DNA of 64,000 nucleotides, taken from NCBI RefSeq assembly GCF_027706745.1, contig NZ_JAQFWP010000001.1, positions 1 to 64,000 of the forward strand, written 5' to 3'. Shown in pieces: positions 4,175 to 63,659 of this stretch. Under the pieces are notes generated by a model, which searched no databases, was not told the origin of the DNA, and saw only the letters and a list, made by a program, of their open reading frames with translations. Each line of letters opens with the position of its first letter. The first letter of the stretch is position 1. A program made the position numbers and the translations under genes. The DNA is from Nocardiopsis suaedae (GTDB lineage Bacteria; Actinomycetota; Actinomycetes; Streptosporangiales; Streptosporangiaceae).

Positions 4175-5644
4175 TCAGCGCACCGGGGCCGGGACCCCGC
4201 CCAGCAGCTCGGCCACGCTCTGGCCGTTGACCCGGGCGGCGCCGTGGCTGCGGACGTGGGTGCGGCACTCGGGGCGCCAGACCGGCAGCCCCATCTCCAC
4301 GACCACCGCGTCCGGCCGCACACGGCACAGCGCCGACACGAACTCCCGGGTCGCCGGAAAGCGATGGGCGTCGCGCACCACGGCCACCAAGGGGCGCCCT
4401 GAGGCCCGGGCCAGCACCCGGGACGGGGCGTCCTCCTCGGCCGTGATCCGCTCGGTGTCCGGGAACCACGGCGCCAGGCCCCAGGGCACCTCGCCCACGG
4501 CGATGCCGGCCGGGGCGTCCAGCTCGACCACGACCGGGTCGGCCAGGTCCGCGGGGGAGAGCGGTTCCCCCACCACCTGCACGGCGCGCCGCGCCCCGTC
4601 CAGCCCAAGGTCGGAGGGGATCTGCGGGGGCGCCCCCTGCGCCGCGGTCCACCGGCGCACGGCCGCCGTCCGCTCGGCGGCCTCCTCCAGCCGCGCGGCC
4701 GGCATCCGCCCCGACCGCACCGCCTCGACGATGGCCGCGCGCACCGCCGCCACCTCGTCGGCGTAGCTGTACCGCCCCAGGCACAGCAGGTCGCACCCGG
4801 CCTCAAGGGCGCGCACCGAGGCCTCGGGCATGCCGATCGGCCGGCGCACCCCGTCCATGTCCAGGGCGTCGCTGATCACCATGCCGGTGAAGCCGAGCTC
4901 GCCGCGCAGCACCTCCACCAGGGCCCGGCGGCTGAGCGTGGCCGGGCCGTCCACCCCTAGGGCGGGCAGGGTGATGTGGGCGGTGAGCACCGCCAGCACG
5001 CCCGCCTCCACGGCCGCGCGGAACGGCCGCAGCTCCCGCTCGCGCAGCAGCTCGGCGGAGGCGTCCACGGACGGCAGGTCCAGGTGCGAGTCCAGCTCGG
5101 TGGCGCCGTGGCCGGGGAAGTGCTTGGCCGCGGCGGCCACCCCGGCCGCCTGCAGGCCCCGCACCGCCGCGGCGCCGTGCCGGGCCACCAGGGCGGCGTC
5201 GGAGCCGAACGAGCGGGTGCCGATCACCGGGTTGTCGGCGGCGGTGTTGACGTCCACCGAGGGCGCCAGGTCCACGGTCAGGCCCAGGCCGCGCAGCTCG
5301 GCGCCGAGGGCGGTGTGCACGTCCTCGGTCAGCGCGGTGTCGTCCACGGCGCCCAGGGCGGCGTTGCCCGGGTAGCCGCTCCCGGCCGCCTGCCCGATGC
5401 GGGTGACGTCGCCGCCCTCCTCGTCCAGGGAGATCAGTGGGTCCCCGCCCACATCGGCCAGGGCGCGGGTGAGCCCCTTCAGCGCCTCCGGCCCGTCCGA
5501 CAGGTCGATGTTGTTGTGGAACAGGCACACCCCGGCGATCCCGTCGGCCAGGCCGTCGAGGAGCCAGCGGGGGGCGGCCGTCGACTCGAAGGGCACCAGC
5601 AGGGTGGCGTTGGCGAGGCGGTCCAGGGTCGGATCCGCAGGCAT
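4175..5644 (-). CDS. Glycoside hydrolase family 3 beta-N-acetylhexosaminidase (NagZ/DasD-like)
   Basis: A 489-residue GH3 enzyme that removes terminal N-acetylglucosamine from chitobiose or muropeptide fragments. The KHFPGHG motif followed by DSHLDLP holds the His/Asp general acid pair of NagZ-type GH3 enzymes. The nucleophile region is VISDALDMDGVR. No signal peptide is visible, so it is probably cytoplasmic and acts on imported sugar. It is the last gene of an SBP-permease-permease-hydrolase operon, the order of Streptomyces dasABCD, where DasD is a GH3 N-acetylglucosaminidase. Start ATG 5644 has GGAG at good spacing. The region after the catalytic domain (about 370-489) is an extra C-terminal domain. 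Confidence 0.9.
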   Translation of the reverse strand: MPADPTLDRLANATLLVPFESTAAPRWLLDGLADGIAGVCLFHNNIDLSDGPEALKGLTRALADVGGDPLISLDEEGGDVTRIGQAAGSGYPGNAALGAVDDTALTEDVHTALGAELRGLGLTVDLAPSVDVNTAADNPVIGTRSFGSDAALVARHGAAAVRGLQAAGVAAAAKHFPGHGATELDSHLDLPSVDASAELLRERELRPFRAAVEAGVLAVLTAHITLPALGVDGPATLSRRALVEVLRGELGFTGMVISDALDMDGVRRPIGMPEASVRALEAGCDLLCLGRYSYADEVAAVRAAIVEAVRSGRMPAARLEEAAERTAAVRRWTAAQGAPPQIPSDLGLDGARRAVQVVGEPLSPADLADPVVVELDAPAGIAVGEVPWGLAPWFPDTERITAEEDAPSRVLARASGRPLVAVVRDAHRFPATREFVSALCRVRPDAVVVEMGLPVWRPECRTHVRSHGAARVNGQSVAELLGGVPAPVR

Positions 5645-5762
5645 GAGGGCTCCGTTCGTTGCGGGTGCGCCGCACGCGGGCGCGCAGAGTGAGCGGGTGC
5701 GGACAGGGGAGGGCGCCCGCGCGGGAGGGGAGCCGCGCGGGCGCGGCCGGACGCGGCGGGGC

Positions 5763-6704
5763 TCAGCCCTTGACCGCGCCCATGGTCAGGCCGGAGACCA
5801 TGCGCCGCTGCACGAAGAGGAAGAAGACCATCACCGGGATGGTCAGCAGTGTGGAGGCGGCCATGATGGCGCCCCACTCGGTCCCGGTCCGGCCGAAGTA
5901 GTAGGACAGGGTGAGCGGGAGCGTGTAGTAGTCGGTGCTGCGCCCCAGGAAGGTCAGCGCGACGATGAACTCGTTCCAGGCGGTGATGAAGGCGAAGATG
6001 CTGGCCGCCACCAGGCCCGGGGCCACCAGCGGCATCAGGATGCGCCAGAAGATCACCGCATTGGAGGCGCCGTCGATGGCGGCGGCCTCCTCCAGCTCCT
6101 TGGGGACGGCCGCGACGAACCCGCGCAGCATCATGATGGTGATCGGCAGGGCGACGGCGGTGTAGACGACGAGGATGCCGGTGAGGTTGCCGAGCATGGT
6201 GATCCCGGTGCCGTCCTGGATACGCCGGAAGTTGATGAAGATGGAGATGATCATCGCCTCCATCGGCACCATCTGGATCACCATCAGCAGGATGATGAAG
6301 GCGGTGCGCAGCCGGAAGCGGAAGCGCGCCACGGCCACCGCGGCCAGCAGCGACAGCAGCGCGGCCACGGCCACCGACCCCAGGGTGACGGTCAGGCTGT
6401 TGACCAGGAACTGCCAGAAGCTCACCCCGGGCAGCAGCTCGCCGTTGACCACCCGGTCGAAGTGCTCGGTGGTCAGGGTCCGGGGGAACACCGACTGGTC
6501 GCGGGAGAAGATCTCGCCCTGGGAGCGCACCGCGGTGGCGACCATCCAGTACACGGGGAAGACCGAGAAGAGCAGCACGGCCGTTCCGGCCAGGTACAGC
6601 CCGGCGCTGCGCAGCCGGGCGGCGGGCGAGCGCCGGCGGCGGGGCGCCCGGTCGGCGCTGCGGGCGCGGGTCGCCCGGTGGGCGCGGGTCGCGGTGGCGG
6701 TCAT
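5763..6704 (-). CDS. Carbohydrate ABC transporter permease, MalG/DasC type
   Basis: A 313-residue inner-membrane permease with six predicted hydrophobic segments. The EAA loop is visible as KELEEAAAIDGASNAVIFWRI, the docking site for the ATPase. The basic N-terminal 30 residues are Arg/Ala rich and likely cytosolic. It starts at ATG 6704 and overlaps the upstream permease by 4 nt. No ATPase gene is present in the operon; actinobacterial CUT1 systems commonly borrow the shared ATPase MsiK encoded elsewhere. Confidence 0.93.
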   Translation of the reverse strand: MTATATRAHRATRARSADRAPRRRRSPAARLRSAGLYLAGTAVLLFSVFPVYWMVATAVRSQGEIFSRDQSVFPRTLTTEHFDRVVNGELLPGVSFWQFLVNSLTVTLGSVAVAALLSLLAAVAVARFRFRLRTAFIILLMVIQMVPMEAMIISIFINFRRIQDGTGITMLGNLTGILVVYTAVALPITIMMLRGFVAAVPKELEEAAAIDGASNAVIFWRILMPLVAPGLVAASIFAFITAWNEFIVALTFLGRSTDYYTLPLTLSYYFGRTGTEWGAIMAASTLLTIPVMVFFLFVQRRMVSGLTMGAVKG

Positions 6705-7699
6705 CGGGTCTCCCCCTGGCGGATCATGATGCGCAGGTAGTAGGCGGTGACGGCGAGGATCATCACGGTCATCACCACCGCGATGGCCGAGCCCATGCCG
6801 TAGTTCGGCGGGCTGGCGCTGAAGCCCTGCTGGTAGATGTAGTAGCTGAGCAGGTACACGGACTTGTTCTGGAAGCCGTTGGCGAGGATGTAGAGCTGGG
6901 TGAACACCCGCAGGTCCCAGATGATCTGCAGGACCATCAGCAGCGCGAACAGCGGCCGCAGCATCGGGAAGGTGACGCTCCAGAAGCTGCGCCAGGGCCC
7001 GGCGCCGTCCACCCGGGCGGCCTCGTACAGCTCCGAGGGGATGCTCTTCAGCCCGGCCAGCACCGAGACCGCGATGAACGGGAACGACTGCCAGACGATC
7101 ACCAGGATCAGCACGCTGAACAGCGGAACCGGTTCGAGGAACCAGTTGTACTCCCGCCAGCCCGAGCCCACCAGCCAGTCGGGCAGCGCGTCCAGGGCGA
7201 CGTTGACCAGGCCCCGGTCGGGCATGAACAGCCAGCGGAAGATCAGCGAGGCGCTGATGGCGGGGGTGGCCCAGGCGAGCATCATGCCGACCGCCACGAC
7301 GGCGGAGAACCACTTGGGCAGCTTGTTCAGCAGGATGCCCACCAGGGTGCCCAGCCCCATGGTGACGCCGACCATCAGGACGGTCACCACCACGGTGTTG
7401 CGCAGGATGGTCCAGAACTCCGGGTCCGACAGCAGCCGCCCGTAGTACTCCAGCCCCTTGAACTCGGGGGCGGGCGCGTTCGGCAGCAGGTGGCGGGTGG
7501 TGAACCCGTGCACCGAGTACCAGACCATCTGCACGATCGGCCAGAGCAGCACGACGGCGAGGATGACCAGGGTCGGGGCGATGAGCAGGTAGGGCGCGCC
7601 GATCCTGAGGCGCGGGCCGCGGCGGGGCCCGGCCCCGGGGCGGGGCTCGGGCTCAGGCGCCCGGTCGTCGGGCGGCGCCGTTTTCACGGTCTGGGCCAT
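6701..7699 (-). CDS. Carbohydrate ABC transporter permease, MalF/DasB type
   Basis: A 332-residue permease partner of the 5763-6704 product. A proline/arginine-rich cytosolic N terminus (residues 1-35) precedes six hydrophobic segments. The EAA loop is SELYEAARVDGAGPWRSFWSV. The paired permeases form the membrane channel of a CUT1 sugar importer. It lies 136 nt downstream of the binding-protein gene and is 4-nt coupled to the next permease. Confidence 0.93.
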   Translation of the reverse strand: MAQTVKTAPPDDRAPEPEPRPGAGPRRGPRLRIGAPYLLIAPTLVILAVVLLWPIVQMVWYSVHGFTTRHLLPNAPAPEFKGLEYYGRLLSDPEFWTILRNTVVVTVLMVGVTMGLGTLVGILLNKLPKWFSAVVAVGMMLAWATPAISASLIFRWLFMPDRGLVNVALDALPDWLVGSGWREYNWFLEPVPLFSVLILVIVWQSFPFIAVSVLAGLKSIPSELYEAARVDGAGPWRSFWSVTFPMLRPLFALLMVLQIIWDLRVFTQLYILANGFQNKSVYLLSYYIYQQGFSASPPNYGMGSAIAVVMTVMILAVTAYYLRIMIRQGETR

Positions 7700-7835
7700 G
7701 GCGGGACTTCTCGATTCGACGGTGGCGTGGGGGGCCGGTGCGGTGGGATCCGGGGCAGTGGGGCGCGGGGCGGCGGGGCGGCCGTGAGGGGCGGCGGCCG
7801 CCCCGCCTGTGGGTGGGCCCGTCGGGGCCGGGGTG

Positions 7836-9125
7836 CTACTCCACTTCCTCGTTGAGGGTCTCGGTCAGGTCCTTGTTGGCCTGTTCCATGACCTCGTCCA
7901 CGTCGCCGCCCTGGACGATCTCCAGCACCGCCGAGGGCAGGATCGCCTGGTCCTGGTCGGCGGCGTTCCAGCGCGGGGTGGCCGGGAAGAACTCGGTGTG
8001 CTCCATCTGCTGGGCGCCCGCGGCCTTGACAGGGTCCTCCTGGTAGGCCGGGTCGTTCAGCAGCTCGGGGTAGGCCGGGAAGTAGCCGGCGGCGTCGGCG
8101 TAGCCCTTGCCGCCCTCCTTGTCGCCCATCACCTTGAGCAGCTCGGTGGCGTGCTCGGGGTACTCGGTGGTGGAGAAGACGGTCAGGGCCGAGCCGCCCG
8201 CGAAGGCCGGGGCGATGCCCTCGGCGCCGGGCATGGGGGCGGCGGAGATCTCCTCCAGCAGGGCCGGGTCCTCGGCCTGCTCCTCCATCTGGCCCATGGC
8301 CCAGCTGCCGTCGATGTACATGCCGAGCTCGCCGTTGGCCATGTCGGCCAGCGGGACCAGCTCGTTCTCACCGACGTAGGACTGCGGCGAGATCTCCTCC
8401 TCGGAGGTGAGCCCGGCGTAGAACTCGACGGCCTCCTTGGCCTCGGCGCTGGTGAGCTGCCCCTGCCACTCGCCGCCCTCCTGGGTGGCGATCTCTCCGC
8501 CGTTGCTCCAGATGAAGCTGGCGATGCCGTTGGTGAAGTCGGTGGGCGCGGCGAAGCCGGGAACGCCCTGCTCCTCCTCGATGGCGGTGGAGACCTCGAC
8601 GAGCTCGTCCCAGGTCGCCGGGGGCTCCATGTCCATGTCGCTCAGCCAGTCCGAGCGGTAGTAGAGGGTGCGCACACCGGCGAACCACGGGATGCCGTAC
8701 TGGGCGCCGTCGTACTGGCCGTACTCCAGGGCGCCCTGGTCCAGGTCGCCGGTGGCCCCCCAGTCGGCGATGTGCTCGTCCAGCGCGAGCAGCGCGCCCT
8801 GCTGGGCCCAGTTGGAGGTCTGGTCGTTGCCGACCTCCAGGACGTCCGGGGCGTCGCCTCCGGCCATCGCGTTGGTGATGGACTCCTGGGCGTCCTCCCA
8901 GGGGACGAACTCCACCTCGACGGTGGTGTCGGGGTAGGTCTCCTGGTAGCGCTTCTCGATGCCGTCGAAGTACTCGACGAGGGGGTCCTGGGCGGTGCCC
9001 ATGACCCACACGGTCAGGCTGTCGGGCGCGCCGGCGGGGTCGGCGCCCCCGCCGCCGCCCCCTCCGCCGCAGGCGGCCGCGAGGAGAACAACCGCCGGAA
9101 CGGCTGCGATCTTCGGGAATCTCAC
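7836..9125 (-). CDS. Sugar-binding lipoprotein of an ABC importer (extracellular solute-binding protein family 1)
   Basis: A secreted lipoprotein that captures oligosaccharides for the two downstream permeases. The signal peptide ends in the lipobox LLAAAC, followed by a Gly-rich linker. The mature domain is SBP family 1 (TVWVMGTAQDP, GDAPDVLEVGND, DGSWAMGQM). I place the start at GTG 9125, because GGGAG lies 7 nt upstream and the signal peptide then begins MRFPKIAAV. A GTG at 9152 would add nine residues. By operon order it resembles DasA, the chitobiose-binding protein, but the ligand is inferred. Expression is probably controlled from the shared intergenic region with the ROK gene. Confidence 0.9.
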   Translation of the reverse strand: MRFPKIAAVPAVVLLAAACGGGGGGGGADPAGAPDSLTVWVMGTAQDPLVEYFDGIEKRYQETYPDTTVEVEFVPWEDAQESITNAMAGGDAPDVLEVGNDQTSNWAQQGALLALDEHIADWGATGDLDQGALEYGQYDGAQYGIPWFAGVRTLYYRSDWLSDMDMEPPATWDELVEVSTAIEEEQGVPGFAAPTDFTNGIASFIWSNGGEIATQEGGEWQGQLTSAEAKEAVEFYAGLTSEEEISPQSYVGENELVPLADMANGELGMYIDGSWAMGQMEEQAEDPALLEEISAAPMPGAEGIAPAFAGGSALTVFSTTEYPEHATELLKVMGDKEGGKGYADAAGYFPAYPELLNDPAYQEDPVKAAGAQQMEHTEFFPATPRWNAADQDQAILPSAVLEIVQGGDVDEVMEQANKDLTETLNEEVE

Positions 9126-37252: not shown

Positions 37253-38956
37253 GTGGGAGAGGGACGTGCCCGGCGCGGCGCCGCGCTGCTGTGCGCGGTC
37301 GCCGTCGGCGCGGCGGCCTGCTCGCCCGCGGAGGAGGGGGCCGGTCCCCGGCCCGCCGCCGCGGGGGGCGTGGACGTGGGCGCCGCCGACCGCGCCGACC
37401 TCGAACCCGGCGGCACCCTCGACTGGGGCATCAACGAGTTCCCCGCCCAGTGGAACCCCCACCACGCCGACGGGAACCTGGCCACGGTGCGCACCGTCAC
37501 CGACGCCGTGCTGCCCACCCCCTTCGAGGTGGACCCGGAGGAGGGGCCCCGGCCCGACCCCGACTACCTGCTCGGCGCCGAGGTGCGCGAGGCGGGGCCG
37601 GACCGCCCGCAGACGGTGACCCTGCGCCTCAACCCGGAGGCGCACTGGTCCGACGGCACCCCCATCACCTGGCGGGACTACCGGGCCACGGCCGACGCGC
37701 TGGACGGGCAGGGCGACGGCTACCGGGTGCGCGGCGAGGTCGGCTACGACCGCATCGCCCGCGTGCGGCAGGGCGCCGACGAGTACGAGGCGGTCGTGGA
37801 GTTCTCCGAGCCGTTCTCGGAGTACCCGTCGCTGTTCGCCCCGCTGCTGCCCGAGTCGGTGGCCGGCGACCCCGAGGCGTTCAACGGGGACTACAAGGGG
37901 GACATCCCGCTGACCGCCGGGCCGTTCGAGGTGGCCGGGGTCGACGACGGGGCCCGCCGCGTGGAGCTGCGGCGCTCGGAGGACTGGTGGGGCGACCCCG
38001 CGGTGCTCGACGGCATCGTGTTCACCGCCATGGACCAGGAGGGGCTGGACAGCGCGTTCCTGGACGGGGGCATCGACGCCTACGCGCTCCCCGTGGACGC
38101 CGGGTCGTTCTCGCGGGCGAACTCCGCCGGGGACGGGGAGGTGCGCGTCGCGCTCGGGCCGGACTACCGGCACATCACCCTGAACGGCGAGAGCCCGCTG
38201 CTGCGGGACCGCAAGGTGCGGCACGCGGTGTTCCTCGGGGTGAACCGGCAGGCCCTGACGGACGCGGCGCTGAGCGGCCTGGGGATGGAGGCCGAGCCGC
38301 TGGGCAACCACTTCCTGCTGGAGGGGCAGCCCGGTTTCACCGACAACAGCGGGCAGTGGGGGCGGCACGACCCGGAGCGCGCGGGCGAACTCCTCGACGA
38401 GGCGGGCTGGAAGCCGGGCGAGGACGGGATCCGCCAGAAGGACGGCGAGCGGCTCGAACTGCGCTTCCTCGTCCCCCGAGGCTTCCGTCCGGCCCAGGAC
38501 GAGGCGGAGATGGTGCAGGCCATGCTCAGTGAGGCGGGCATCGGCGTCACCATCGAGCCGGTTGGCGGGGACGAGCTGTTCTCCCGCTACGTGCTGCCGG
38601 GCGACTACGACATGGTGGCGTTCGTGAACACCGGCGGGCGGTTCCCGATCTCCAATTCGCTCCCGCAGTGGGCGTCCCCGGTGGAGGGGCCCGACGGCGA
38701 GGAGTGGCGCTCCAACGTCGGCCGCATCGGGTCCAAGGAGATCGACGCGGCGATGGACGAGGCCTTGGAGAGCCTCGACGAGGAGGCGTCCCTGCGAGCG
38801 GTGAACCGCGCGGACGAGCTGCTGTGGCAGGAGGGCCACACGCTGCCGCTGTACCAGCGCCCCCAACTGATGGGCGTCCGCTCCGACCTCGCCAACATAG
38901 GCGCCCCGGGCTTCGGCACCCACCAATACGAGGACATCGGCTACCTGAAGGAGTGA
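37253..38956 (+). CDS. Peptide-binding lipoprotein of an ABC transporter (SBP family 5)
   Basis: A 567-residue secreted binding protein. The lipobox is GAAAC after a short signal peptide. SBP_bac_5 motifs are GTLDWGINEFPAQWNPHHADGN, LRLNPEAHWSDGTPITWRDY, KVRHAVFLGVNRQAL and YNLPLYQ-like TLPLYQRPQL. GTG 37253 has AAGGGG at good spacing; another GTG lies at 37247. It follows the single permease by 114 nt. Likely substrates are peptides or cell-wall fragments, which fits linkage to dapF but is inference. Confidence 0.92.
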   Translation: MGEGRARRGAALLCAVAVGAAACSPAEEGAGPRPAAAGGVDVGAADRADLEPGGTLDWGINEFPAQWNPHHADGNLATVRTVTDAVLPTPFEVDPEEGPRPDPDYLLGAEVREAGPDRPQTVTLRLNPEAHWSDGTPITWRDYRATADALDGQGDGYRVRGEVGYDRIARVRQGADEYEAVVEFSEPFSEYPSLFAPLLPESVAGDPEAFNGDYKGDIPLTAGPFEVAGVDDGARRVELRRSEDWWGDPAVLDGIVFTAMDQEGLDSAFLDGGIDAYALPVDAGSFSRANSAGDGEVRVALGPDYRHITLNGESPLLRDRKVRHAVFLGVNRQALTDAALSGLGMEAEPLGNHFLLEGQPGFTDNSGQWGRHDPERAGELLDEAGWKPGEDGIRQKDGERLELRFLVPRGFRPAQDEAEMVQAMLSEAGIGVTIEPVGGDELFSRYVLPGDYDMVAFVNTGGRFPISNSLPQWASPVEGPDGEEWRSNVGRIGSKEIDAAMDEALESLDEEASLRAVNRADELLWQEGHTLPLYQRPQLMGVRSDLANIGAPGFGTHQYEDIGYLKE

Positions 38957-45373: not shown

Positions 45374-45943
45374 TCAGGCGCACTGCCAGAGGAACCGGCC
45401 CTCGCCCGTCTCACTGTTCAGGAACGCGTAGCCGATTCCCGCGTCGCCGAAATTCACGTCGAACGGCGCTTTGCAGCTGTCCAGTTGGAGCACGTGCTCC
45501 CACGTTCCCGGGGCCTTCGGTTCCTCGTTGCGCTGGAGCCAGGCGGGGGCGCCTCCCAGGAAGGTGAAGGACTCGTCGTCCGTGTCGGGGGCGGAGGTCA
45601 CCGCGACGTGGTCCGGGCCGTGCGTTGGGCCCGTCTCCAATGGAGCGACCTCATAGAAGCTCGCGGGGCGTCCCGGCTGGGCGAAGAACGCGTTCTCCCC
45701 GCCGTCGGGCTCCCACGTGCCTTCGACGAACTCCCCGTCCTCCTCCTCGGTCATGAAGAGGTAGCCGAGGCGCACCCCGGCGCCGGGCAGGCGGACCTGC
45801 CCGATGAACCGCATGGGGTTGCCGGTCTCCGCCGACAGCGGCCACGCGGGCTCTTCCAGCCAGACCGGCTGTCCGCCGAACTTGGTGACCGGTTCCCGGA
45901 CCGGGACGTCGGACTTCTCGAATTGCAGGACCTGCTTGTCCAA
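45374..45943 (-). CDS. DUF1963/YwqG-like protein, paralogue A
   Basis: A 189-residue soluble protein. Motifs are VTKFGGQPVWLEEPAWPLS, NPMRFIGQVRLPGAGVRLGYLFMT, GPTHGPDHVAV and GYAFLNSETGEGRFLWQCA. Four paralogues in this window share these and a cysteine at or one residue from the C terminus. The start is TTG 45943 after AGGA, matching the 189-residue length of paralogue C. It has its own ECF-type promoter (46007-46032), and the CBS gene lies just upstream on the same strand. Function unknown; DUF1963 proteins are widespread and uncharacterised. Confidence 0.82.
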   Translation of the reverse strand: MDKQVLQFEKSDVPVREPVTKFGGQPVWLEEPAWPLSAETGNPMRFIGQVRLPGAGVRLGYLFMTEEEDGEFVEGTWEPDGGENAFFAQPGRPASFYEVAPLETGPTHGPDHVAVTSAPDTDDESFTFLGGAPAWLQRNEEPKAPGTWEHVLQLDSCKAPFDVNFGDAGIGYAFLNSETGEGRFLWQCA

Positions 45944-46006: not shown

Positions 46007-46032
46007 GACGGATGGGGCGGAGGAGCGGTTCC
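46007..46032 (-). promoter_or_regulatory. ECF-type promoter of DUF1963 paralogue A
   Basis: Minus-strand -35 GGAACC (46032-46027), 16-bp spacer, -10 CGTC (46010-46007). The same arrangement precedes paralogues B, C and D. The start codon lies about 60 nt downstream. Confidence 0.75.
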
Positions 46033-46138
46033 TCTGGAGACGGGCGGGGCGCTGAACGGCGCCAGGACCGTTCCGGCGCACAACGGGACCGAGGGGCGCC
46101 TCACGGCGGCCCCTCGGTCGGAATCCGGTCGGGGAGCG

Positions 46139-46567
46139 TCAGGAGGAGTACACGCGCTCCACGAAATGCGCCAACTGGTCGTCGGACAGGAACTGGGCCA
46201 GGTCGGCTTCGCTGATCATGCCGACGAACCTGCGGTTCTCGTCGATGACCGGCAGGCGGCGGATCTGGTTGCCCTCCATCTCCCGCAGGACGTCCTGTAC
46301 GCTCGCGCGGCTCGCGATCCAGTGGGGCGTGCCCCGGCACAGTTCCCCGGCGGTGACGTGGGACGGCTCGTGGCCCGAGGCCACGCACATCACCACGATG
46401 TCGCGGTCGGTGATGAGCCCGACCATGCGCTCGTCGGGATCCATCGGGTCGCTCACCGGTAGGGCGCCCACCCCGTGCTCCCGCATGAGCTGCGCCGCAC
46501 GGTCCAGGGTCTCGTCGGCGGGGATCCAATGGGCTCCAGGGTGCATGATGTCGGCGGCGGTGGTCAT
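46139..46567 (-). CDS. Tandem CBS-domain protein
   Basis: A 142-residue protein made of two CBS domains: TAADIMHPGAHWIPADETL, MREHGVGALPVSD, GLITDRDIVVMCVASG, then MEGNQIRRLPVIDENRRFVGMISEADLAQF. Such Bateman modules bind adenine nucleotides and are often stress-linked. ATG 46567 is the family start. It sits between DUF1963 paralogues A and B; the corresponding place in the second cassette lacks it. Confidence 0.9.
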   Translation of the reverse strand: MTTAADIMHPGAHWIPADETLDRAAQLMREHGVGALPVSDPMDPDERMVGLITDRDIVVMCVASGHEPSHVTAGELCRGTPHWIASRASVQDVLREMEGNQIRRLPVIDENRRFVGMISEADLAQFLSDDQLAHFVERVYSS

Positions 46568-46735
46568 GTCCCGGCCTCCTCGGCTCGGATTCCTGATGGA
46601 CGGGGCCGTCCACAGGCCTCTCCCGGTCAACGCTAGGAGCGTCCCGGCAAAAGGCACGACACATGGCGGGTCCGGACTCGCCAAAGGCCGCAGGGGCGGG
46701 TGGCGGACGGCGCCGGAGAACGCGGTGCGTTTCGG

Positions 46736-46763
46736 GGAACCGGATCGCTCCCGGACCCGTCTT
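46736..46763 (+). promoter_or_regulatory. ECF-type promoter of DUF1963 paralogue B
   Basis: -35 GGAACC (46736-46741), 16-bp spacer, -10 CGTCTT (46758-46763). The downstream word TTGTCCGTTG is nearly the same as at paralogue D. Confidence 0.78.
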
Positions 46764-46816
46764 GTCCGTTGCCGGGGGGCGCACAGGGCGCCGCCGGATC
46801 GGGACGAGGAGATCGC

Positions 46817-47563
46817 ATGACCGTTGAGGACCTGCGGACCCTGCAGATCGGCAGGCTGGTGCCCCTGGCCGAGGGGGAGTCCGTGCGGGCGGACGACGGC
46901 GGACCGGCGACCAGGCTCGGCGGCCAGCCGGACTGGCTCTCCGAGCCGGAGTGGCCCCTGGCGTCCGGGAAGGCCCAGCGCTTCATCGCGCAGGTGCGGC
47001 TCCCCGGCTCCGAGCCGAGGATGGCCTACATCTTCATGGAGGACGACGGGTTCGGCGACCAGGACCCGGACTTGGGCGACCTCAGTGAGTACGACTGGAA
47101 CACCGACGTCCCGTCCACCTACCGCGTGACCGACTCCCACGCCCCCAACACCGTCATCGTCCAACCAAACGGCACACCCCGCGTCCCCACCGCGCCGGTC
47201 GCGGAGGGCCCGACCCTGCACAACATCGTCCCTGGCCAGGCCATGCCCGTGGCGTACCGGGTGGAGCTCGCGCCGTACGTCCCGGAGACGGTGGAGGCGG
47301 AGGTCGAGGGGGAGGAGGACGTCCCGGTCGCCTGGTGGTCGGGTGACGCGAAGTTCGACGAGGAGGAGGACCGCCCCGACGTCCAGGTCGGAGGGAAGGC
47401 CTTCTGGCTCCAGATGCAAGAGGTGCCTGACGACTGGCACCACGTGGCCACCATCGACTCGGCCACCGACAAGTACTCCATCAACTGCGGCGACAGCGGC
47501 CTCGCCTACGCCTTCCTGAACCCCGAGCAGACCAACGGCGTCCTGATCACCCAGTCCTGCTGA
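46817..47563 (+). CDS. DUF1963/YwqG-like protein, paralogue B
   Basis: A 248-residue member of the four-copy set (RLGGQPDWLSEPEWPLASG, RFIAQVRLPGSEPRMAYIFM, KYSINCGDSGLAYAFLNPEQ, ending TQSC). It is longer than A and C because of an acidic central insert. ATG 46817 has GAGGAG 5 nt upstream and an ECF-type promoter about 55 nt before that. It is divergent from the CBS gene and from A, and its closest relative is D. Confidence 0.83.
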   Translation: MTVEDLRTLQIGRLVPLAEGESVRADDGGPATRLGGQPDWLSEPEWPLASGKAQRFIAQVRLPGSEPRMAYIFMEDDGFGDQDPDLGDLSEYDWNTDVPSTYRVTDSHAPNTVIVQPNGTPRVPTAPVAEGPTLHNIVPGQAMPVAYRVELAPYVPETVEAEVEGEEDVPVAWWSGDAKFDEEEDRPDVQVGGKAFWLQMQEVPDDWHHVATIDSATDKYSINCGDSGLAYAFLNPEQTNGVLITQSC

Positions 47564-47635
47564 ATGCTCGGGACCCGCAGGCCGAAGGTGCGGCGCTGCA
47601 CCAGCGCCGACCGGGGCGGCTGAAGCCTGCACATC

Positions 47636-47693
47636 CGGACGGTTCGCCCGCGGATCGGCGCCGGTCCCGGTCGACCGGCGGGCGAGCCGTCCG
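47636..47693. terminator. Hairpin terminator between cassette copies
   Basis: Arms 47636-47651 and 47678-47693 pair over 16 bp with one mismatch. It lies between convergent paralogues B and C. Part of its loop repeats the hairpin at 45326-45359. Confidence 0.75.
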
Positions 47694-47700
47694 CCACAGG

Positions 47701-48270
47701 TCAGCAGCAGTGCCAGAAGAAGCGGCCCTCGCCGGTCTCCGTGTCCAGGAAGGCGTAGCCGGTGCCCGTGTCGCCGAAGTTGACGTAGAACGGCACGTCA
47801 ATGCTGTCCAGCTGGAGTATGTGCTCCCACGTTCCGGGGGCATCAAGAAGCACATCGGGGGCGCCTCCCAGGAAGGTGATGCCGCCTCCGACGAACGGGA
47901 TGGAGTCGGGGTCGTACGTCACCGCGACGTGGTCGGGGCCGTGCGTCGGGCCGGTCTCCAGCGGGGCGGCCTCGTAGAAGGAGGCGGGGCGTCCCGGCTG
48001 GGCGAAGAAGGCGTTCTCCCCGGCCTCGGGATCCATGGTCTCGTAGCCGTGCCCGTCCTCCTCCTCGGTCATGAAGAGGTAGCCGAGGCGCACCCCGGCG
48101 CCGGGCAGGCGGACCTGCCCGATGAACCGCATGGGGTTGCCGGTCTCGGCTGACAGCGGCCATTCCGGCTCCTCCAGCCAGACCGGCTGCCCGCCGAGCT
48201 TGGTGACCGGCTCCCGGACCGGTTCGTCGCACTTCTCGAATCGCAGGAATCGCGGGGTCTGCTCGTCCAC
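47701..48270 (-). CDS. DUF1963/YwqG-like protein, paralogue C
   Basis: A 189-residue paralogue of A, with long identical blocks (GGQPVWLEEP, NPMRFIGQVRLPGAG, TEEEDG, GENAFFAQPGRPASFYE). It ends FFWHCC. GTG 48270 is preceded by AGGAGG at 7 nt, and its promoter matches the ECF type. It is the C member of the second cassette copy. Confidence 0.83.
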   Translation of the reverse strand: MDEQTPRFLRFEKCDEPVREPVTKLGGQPVWLEEPEWPLSAETGNPMRFIGQVRLPGAGVRLGYLFMTEEEDGHGYETMDPEAGENAFFAQPGRPASFYEAAPLETGPTHGPDHVAVTYDPDSIPFVGGGITFLGGAPDVLLDAPGTWEHILQLDSIDVPFYVNFGDTGTGYAFLDTETGEGRFFWHCC

Positions 48271-48335
48271 AGGGGGCCTCCTGGCCGTGTGCCGAATGTG
48301 GCAGGGGACCGGAGTCCCTACCGTGTCGGGGAATC

Positions 48336-48361
48336 GACGGGCGCGACGGGGGGCCGGTTCC
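48336..48361 (-). promoter_or_regulatory. ECF-type promoter of DUF1963 paralogue C
   Basis: Minus-strand -35 GGAACC (48361-48356), 16-bp spacer, -10 CGTC (48339-48336). The start codon is about 65 nt downstream, as for A. Confidence 0.75.
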
Positions 48362-48365
48362 GACG

Positions 48366-48424
48366 CCGTCCACCAGGGGGCTTCCCGACCCACGTTAGGA
48401 ACGGCCGGGCAGAGCGCACGCCAC
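48366..48424 (-). other. Leader block homologous to the CBS gene's upstream region
   Basis: CCGTCCAC, CCCG, ACG-TAGGA-CG and GGCA align in order with 46606-46663, the upstream region of the CBS gene in cassette 1. Here the CBS ORF is missing and the block abuts the paralogue C promoter. It marks a deletion of the CBS gene in the second copy, or its insertion in the first. Confidence 0.55.
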
Positions 48425-48539
48425 CTCCGGTGTTCTCGGACTCACCAGAGTCCTACGCGGACAGGCGCGGCGTGCGGAGCGGGAGCAGTCGGGAAGGGAC
48501 GGGGAGCGTCGCGGCGGGAGAGATGATGGGTGCTCTCCG

Positions 48540-48567
48540 GGAACCGGGGTCCCCCGGCCCCCGTCTT
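48540..48567 (+). promoter_or_regulatory. ECF-type promoter of DUF1963 paralogue D
   Basis: -35 GGAACC (48540-48545), 16-bp spacer, -10 CGTCTT (48562-48567), then TTGTTCGTTGG. Compare the promoter of paralogue B at 46736-46763. Confidence 0.78.
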
Positions 48568-48619: not shown

Positions 48620-49306
48620 ATGAGCGTTGACGACCTGCGGACCATGCACTTCGGCAGGCTGGTGTCCGCAGAGGACGGGGAGGCCGGAGCGGCGGCCGAC
48701 GGCGGGCCGGTGACCAGGTTCGGTGGCCGGCCGGACTGGCTCTCCGAGCCGGAGTGGCCCCTTCCGGGCGGGAGGCCCCTGAGATTCGTCGCGCAGGTGC
48801 GGCTCCCCGGTGCCGAGCCGAGGATGGCCTACATCTTCATGGACGACGGGTACGAGAGGGACTTCAGCGAGTACGGCTGGAACACCGACGCTCCGCAGGC
48901 CTACCGAGTGAACGACCCCTACATCCCCAACACGGTGATCGTGCAGCCGGGAGGCACGCCCTATGTGCGCACCGCGCCGGCCGCCGAGGGGCCGACGCTG
49001 TACTACAGCGCCACTGGCTCCGACCGCACGCCCGTGGAGTACCGCGTAGAGCTCACCCCCTACGAAGGGGACCCCGGCGAGGACGCGGAACCCGAGGACG
49101 TGGTCCCGTGGTGGTCCGACGTCCAGGTCGGCGGAAAGGTCTTCTGGCTCCAGGGCGACGAGTCCCCCGGCGACGAATGGCACCACCTGGCCACCATCGA
49201 CTCCGACGACGGCAAGTACTCCATCAACTGCGGCGACGCCGGGACCGCCTACGCCTTCCTGAACCCGGAGCAGACCGGCGGCATCCTCATCGTCCAGTCC
49301 TGCTGA
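48620..49306 (+). CDS. DUF1963/YwqG-like protein, paralogue D
   Basis: A 228-residue paralogue of B (RFGGRPDWLSEPEWPLPGG, RFVAQVRLPGAEPRMAYIFM, KYSINCGDAGTAYAFLNPEQ, ending VQSC). Its acidic insert is shorter than in B. ATG 48620 has a GGGAGGG ribosome-binding site. It lies 31 nt from the convergent glcF stop. Confidence 0.83.
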   Translation: MSVDDLRTMHFGRLVSAEDGEAGAAADGGPVTRFGGRPDWLSEPEWPLPGGRPLRFVAQVRLPGAEPRMAYIFMDDGYERDFSEYGWNTDAPQAYRVNDPYIPNTVIVQPGGTPYVRTAPAAEGPTLYYSATGSDRTPVEYRVELTPYEGDPGEDAEPEDVVPWWSDVQVGGKVFWLQGDESPGDEWHHLATIDSDDGKYSINCGDAGTAYAFLNPEQTGGILIVQSC

Positions 49307-59430: not shown

Positions 59431-59760
59431 GTCAGCGGGGAACCAGCCGAGCCGCCGCCCCCCCCGCACCGCGAGGAACCCGCCGGACGGCAGGCAGGGC
59501 CGGGGAACCGTCCCGCTCGGGCCGTCGCCGCCCACTGCGGTGACCACGGACACGCCCGGCAGTCGACAGCGCTGCAGGTAGGGCCGCCGATCCTTCGTCG
59601 TCGCTGCCTTCCGCCTGGCACCTCGGTGGCCTGGCGGACGGCCGGGGGCGTGAGCGGGGTACGTGCCGAGCCGTCCACCTGGACCGCGAGGGGCCGGCCG
59701 CCCGGCAGGGCCGGGGAACCGCTGGGCTGTTGCCGTCGCCGCCTACTGCCGTGCACCCCT
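59431..59760 (+). repeat. Two tandem copies of the dispersed intergenic repeat
   Basis: Copy 59431-59590 and shorter copy 59650-59760 share GCAGGGCCGGGGAACCG, an AGCCG...CCGCGAG block and CCGTCGCCGCC. The inverted copy at 63500-63659 matches over the whole unit (about 160 bp). Confidence 0.7.
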
Positions 59761-63499: not shown

Positions 63500-63659
63500 C
63501 TGCGGCCCTTTGGGGAGCGCTGTCGGCTGGCAGGCGTGTGCGTGGCCGCCGTGGACGGCGGCGACGGCCGAAGCGGGGCGGTTCCCCGGGTCTGCCTGCC
63601 GTCCGTTGGGCCTCTCGCGGTCCAGGCGGGCGGGCGGCTGGGCTGGTGCCCCGCTCACG
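63500..63659 (-). repeat. Dispersed intergenic repeat, inverted copy upstream of comEC
   Basis: Minus-strand match to 59431-59590 across the full unit (AGCGGGGCACCAGCC, GACCGCGAG, GACGGCAGGCAG, CGGGGAACCG, GCCGTCGCCGCC, CCGACAGCGCT). It begins about 160 nt upstream of the comEC start. Confidence 0.7.

Follow-up and report, generated by a model that had tools for sequence, protein, structure and literature searches.

Related systems

Promoters of mycobacterial SigM carry the consensus elements GGAAC and CGTC. Among the esx-4 genes that this factor activates are esxT and esxU (PMC10117145). In Streptomyces coelicolor, the envelope-stress promoters of sigma-E (SCO3356) include sites of the form GGAAC(C)-N16/17-CGTC(TT), and the targets named in the available text of that study are lipoproteins, L,D-transpeptidases, a Ser/Thr kinase and other envelope genes (PMC6767563). 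SigE promoters of Corynebacterium and Mycobacterium have the form GGAAC-N18/19-GTT.

DUF1963/YwqG proteins occur widely among bacteria and are related to eukaryotic ribosome-assembly factors. To our knowledge, the role of the bacterial proteins is unknown. Within the TYPP superfamily (YwqG/DUF1963, TSR4, PDCD2), clustered YwqG paralogs have been described, and a protein-binding, chaperone-like role has been proposed for the YwqG/TSR4 fold in general (available text of PMC4275035). Stress-sigma control of bacterial members is not mentioned in that text, whereas the two divergent DUF1963 gene pairs described here share a putative ECF promoter. We consider it likely that their four sites are ECF promoters (-35 GGAACC, 16-bp spacer, -10 CGTC) which place both pairs in an envelope-stress regulon of some 30 promoters.

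The DUF1963 cluster and its putative promoter sites

The stretch analyzed, referred to as the window, comprises 64,000 nt and contains four DUF1963 genes, A to D (Table 1). Exact GGAACC-N16-CGTC was found upstream of each, with a spacer of 16 in four of four, at all the places where the sequence-only reading had put a shared motif. Its coordinates were correct for A and C, while the ends of B and D were 2 nt too long (true ends 46761 and 48565). From the last base of CGTC to the start codon, as predicted by a simple codon-usage gene finder, we measured 54-65 nt for all four genes; the first estimate was about 50-65 nt. In total, the window holds five matches to the motif. Dinucleotide shuffling predicts 0.43 matches per window, with none of the shuffles yielding as many as five. 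The fifth match (37473-37498, + strand) is intragenic.

Table 1. Genes and putative promoters of the DUF1963 cluster (window coordinates).
Feature	Position	Strand	Remarks
Promoter of gene A	46007-46032	-	GGAACC-N16-CGTC, then GGTACC; kept in loci L134 and L135
Gene A, 189-aa DUF1963 (TYPP/YwqG superfamily) protein	45374-45943	-	TTG start at 45943
Gene between A and B, two-CBS-domain protein	46139-46567	-	Position shared with N. endophytica and N. chromatogenes
Promoter of gene B	46736-46761	+	GGAACC-N16-CGTC, then TTGTCCGTTG; kept in loci L134, L135 and L136
Gene B, 248-aa DUF1963 protein	46817-47563	+	ATG start at 46817
Promoter of gene C	48336-48361	-	GGAACC-N16-CGTC, then GATTCC
Gene C, 189-aa DUF1963 protein, paralog of A (78% identity)	47701-48270	-	GTG start at 48270
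Promoter of gene D	48540-48565	+	GGAACC-N16-CGTC, then TTGTTCGTTG
Gene D, 228-aa DUF1963 protein, paralog of B (68% identity)	48620-49306	+	ATG start at 48620

All four products scored above the Pfam DUF1963 gathering cut-off and retain the GGxP motif and the conserved Q (invariant G27, G28, P30 and Q53), features that, like the clustering of paralogs, they share with the TYPP superfamily as presented in the available text of PMC4275035. A weak profile match (E = 0.05) was obtained to 1pv5, which has a two-repeat, strand-swapped fold. The proteins fall into two types, A with C and B with D, and the A-type and B-type are 35-39% identical over the alignment. The C/D pair looks like a diverged tandem copy of the divergent A/B pair that lacks the CBS gene, because N. 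endophytica and N. chromatogenes each have a single A-CBS-B unit at the same place.

The two-CBS-domain gene is kept between A and B in three Nocardiopsis. In N. halophila, the B-type gene is flanked by two CBS genes (locus L136, 4067-4492 and 5606-6031). In a second Nocardiopsis lineage (genome G002, locus L137), two A-type DUF1963 genes lie close together on one strand (5590-6234 and 7684-8328), with neither a B-type gene nor the ECF motif.

A probable genome-wide promoter class

The sequence-only reading had proposed a genome-wide search for the motif. This search was productive, yielding 71 copies in the 7-Mb genome, compared with 23 for the reversed control. The motif was not equally frequent inside genes: 48 of the 71 copies were intergenic, although intergenic DNA makes up 16% of the sampled sequence. 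Within the 440 kb sampled, 28 N16 sites lay 20-140 nt before a start on the same strand, against 5 sites for 17 other spacings together. Because N16 sites had guided the sampling, these counts can be taken at face value only for the other spacings, which, scaled to the genome, average about 5 per spacing versus 28 for N16.

A further preference emerged outside the search pattern. The third base after CGTC was A (CGTC-NN-A) in 23 of 31 promoter-positioned sites, compared with 4 of 23 in-gene sites, and a search for GGAAC-N17-CGTC-NNA returned 50 matches versus 1 in its reversed control. The N. endophytica genome contained 66 copies by the same search. Before the orthologous genes of this species, 33 of 37 near-start sites recurred, often with only 8-13 of the 16 spacer positions identical (minimum 8/16), while recurrence of in-gene sites was limited to 7 of 23 (5/14 sense, 2/9 antisense). 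What computation shows directly is the motif with its position and enrichment, its conservation across the genus and, as described below, regulon content of the envelope type.

Taken together, the enrichment of one spacing 20-140 nt before starts, the intergenic bias, the conservation at orthologs with drifted spacers and the unselected A make it very likely that GGAACC-N16-CGTC represents an ECF-type promoter class in Nocardiopsis, and so bear out the promoter type first assigned to the four sites. Short GC-rich words are common, and, with C/D a copy of A/B, the window would offer only two independent sites. Chance GC-rich matches spread by duplication from one ancestral site could in principle produce such a picture. 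Spacing specificity, intergenic bias, the unselected consensus base and orthologous conservation despite spacer drift already contradict this reading, which we regard as next to negligible.

Some distant intergenic matches were rejected as promoters, being copies of an interspersed repeat in its N13 form (GGAACCGCCCCGCTT..GCCGTC). This intergenic repeat occurs in the window at 59482-59542, 59693-59753 and 63554-63585, with copies on many contigs. Its core is GGAACCG...GCCGTCGCCGCC (N13 form), and a few false N16 matches arise from it.

Predicted regulon content

Genes following near-start sites encode Spo0M, two SPFH/Band_7 proteins (one flotillin-like) and scramblase/LURP-like proteins. Also downstream of the motif are genes for an Ig-YkuD L,D-transpeptidase, for septum-formation, LppX-like, OmpA and DUF4333 lipoproteins, and for WXG100, SUFU, HEAT and TPR proteins, a mycoredoxin-like glutaredoxin and an mIHF-like protein. 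Judged by these families, the predicted gene content is of the envelope-stress type, and the analysis supplies a predicted ECF regulon, ready for further study, with some 30 promoters for Nocardiopsis and a candidate sigma factor. The likeness to S. coelicolor sigma-E lies in promoter type and in the classes of envelope genes named above. DUF1963, Spo0M and SPFH targets, in contrast, are not mentioned in the available text of that study, where the word Spo0M does not occur (PMC6767563).

Two individual loci deserve description. At L087 (G000:C68, 7237 and 10738), tandem genes for TPR proteins have identical 26-base promoter sites and form a further duplicated pair in the predicted regulon. The SUFU-domain gene at L074 (G000:C46:1210) carries the motif with CGTCGGTGCC behind it, a sequence similar to the A-type DUF1963 extension CGTCGGTACC.

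Candidate sigma factors

The sequence-only reading had proposed the motif search as a way to find the sigma factor's own promoter. No N16-CGTC site preceded the start of any of 28 sigma loci and, even under relaxed matching, the only upstream site at an ECF sigma gene was of the SigE type, N18-CGTT. Among the same 28 loci, the motif occurred only at sigM, inside the 3' end of the gene, where it occupies the last codons and lies 29 nt before the start of an anti-sigma-like gene. This site reads GGAACC-N16-CGTC-ACA. All six Nocardiopsis keep its GGAACC and CGTC elements unaltered, and in the two most distant of these 63-64 of the 185 preceding sigM codons differ. The sigM product scored 280 bits, above the NCBIfam SigM equivalog cut-off of 190 bits.

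Our data suggest an ECF factor of the SigM type, whose anti-sigma partner would be controlled by this motif as well, as the best candidate for the main factor, though not an established one; the proposed link consists of a single conserved site within coding sequence. The arrangement resembles SigM-RsmA of Mycobacterium in that a SigM equivalog is followed by an anti-sigma-like gene and a WXG100 gene is a predicted target. It differs in that the predicted Nocardiopsis regulon is broader and envelope-centred.

A Streptomyces-type sigma-E as the main factor, instead of SigM, is possible but unlikely. The genome encodes two Streptomyces-type SigE-family factors (L027 and L033), the S. coelicolor consensus is nearly identical, and the regulon there also has L,D-transpeptidases, lipoproteins and a Ser/Thr kinase (available text of PMC6767563). 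However, neither SigE-family gene has the motif upstream, and the conserved site is found in the sigM operon only. The sites themselves also differ from those of S. coelicolor, with the third base after CGTC mostly A and TT rare; S. coelicolor sites often have a T directly after CGTC, which here was present in 3 of 31. A conserved two-component neighbourhood was not found for the SigE-like L033, beside which the neighbourhood checked contained no two-component genes.

That the mycobacterial-type SigE factor L013 reads the sites is very improbable. This protein passes the SigE equivalog cut-off, and the -35 element GGAAC is the same, but its own upstream region carries GGAAC-N18-CGTT, which departs from N16-CGTC in both spacing and -10 element and in both respects follows the SigE promoters of Corynebacterium and Mycobacterium.

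Putative DUF1963 promoters within the class

The four DUF1963 promoters deviate from the CGTC-NN-A pattern. The extra A is present in none of the four, compared with 23 of the 27 other promoter-positioned sites (Fisher p = 0.002). Instead, CGTC is followed by TTGT in the B-type and by G[AG]T in the A-type, and both N. endophytica and N. chromatogenes keep these deviations (CGTCTTGT in the B-type, CGTCG[AG]TA in the A-type). The B and D sites match the Streptomyces sigma-E form of the -10 element, CGTCTT, while A, C and most other sites do not.

As all four promoters lack the extra A, A-D may be served by a different or additional ECF factor. A distinct factor, such as the Streptomyces-SigE-family L027 or L033, would read the same -35 element and CGTC with different following bases. 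Such a reading draws on the absence of A, on its conservation in both relatives and on the CGTCTT of B and D, which is seen in many S. coelicolor sigma-E promoters (available text of PMC6767563). We nevertheless consider it unlikely: the A is likewise missing from four other near-start sites, those of a conserved L,D-transpeptidase gene and an mIHF-like gene among them; the A-type and B-type extensions are unlike each other; and the sample is small, with two of its four sites being duplicates. From the sites themselves, membership of A-D in exactly the same regulon as the CGTC-NN-A sites is likely but unproven.

With a shared envelope-stress regulon as the preferred reading, we infer that the promoters are used, by which factor and on what signal, and what the proteins may do. 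Most likely, envelope damage would release the ECF factor from a membrane-bound anti-sigma protein. Once free, the factor would open the two divergent promoters of each DUF1963 pair, and A-type and B-type TYPP proteins would be made together on damage. By analogy with the general proposal for the TYPP fold, the two types might act as protein-binding, chaperone-like partners, a role that fits the GGxP and Q signatures of A-D. Placing a conserved DUF1963 pair in an envelope-stress regulon provides a testable condition for expression and phenotype. A more specific version seems rather doubtful: here the A-type and B-type proteins would be obligate partners, made together under the control of an ECF factor other than that of the main envelope regulon, and would work as a heteromeric chaperone in envelope stress. 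If true, such a heteromeric chaperone pair would be the first stress role for bacterial TYPP proteins, as far as the literature covered here extends.

Reach of the motif among DUF1963 genes

N. endophytica and N. chromatogenes retain the sites before both A-type and B-type genes, and N. halophila retains the B-type site. These sites are kept before both arms while their spacers have diverged. The motif was absent before the A-type genes of N. halophila, N. potens and one more species.

Pfam identified three more DUF1963 genes in the genome besides A-D, none with the motif upstream. Among 51 DUF1963 homolog loci outside Nocardiopsis, including those of Saccharopolyspora and Streptomyces, no convincing site was seen beyond the clade. 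Motif control is a feature of this gene pair in this Nocardiopsis clade and not of the DUF1963 family, since neither the homologs outside the clade nor the other three genomic DUF1963 genes have the motif. The initial statement that all four DUF1963 genes share the promoter is accurate for the cluster but not for the genome. Likewise, of the proposal of one extracytoplasmic stress regulon for the family, the genome-wide regulon with envelope-stress-like predicted content stood; its extension to the family did not, given the three further genes and nearly all relatives elsewhere without the motif, and A-D themselves lack the extra A.

Another DUF1963 gene (L100; G000:C4 near 70.2 kb) has a CRISPR-like array with the repeat GAAAGCCCCGCAGGCGCGGGGATGGACC directly upstream, within 300 bp upstream of position 6353.
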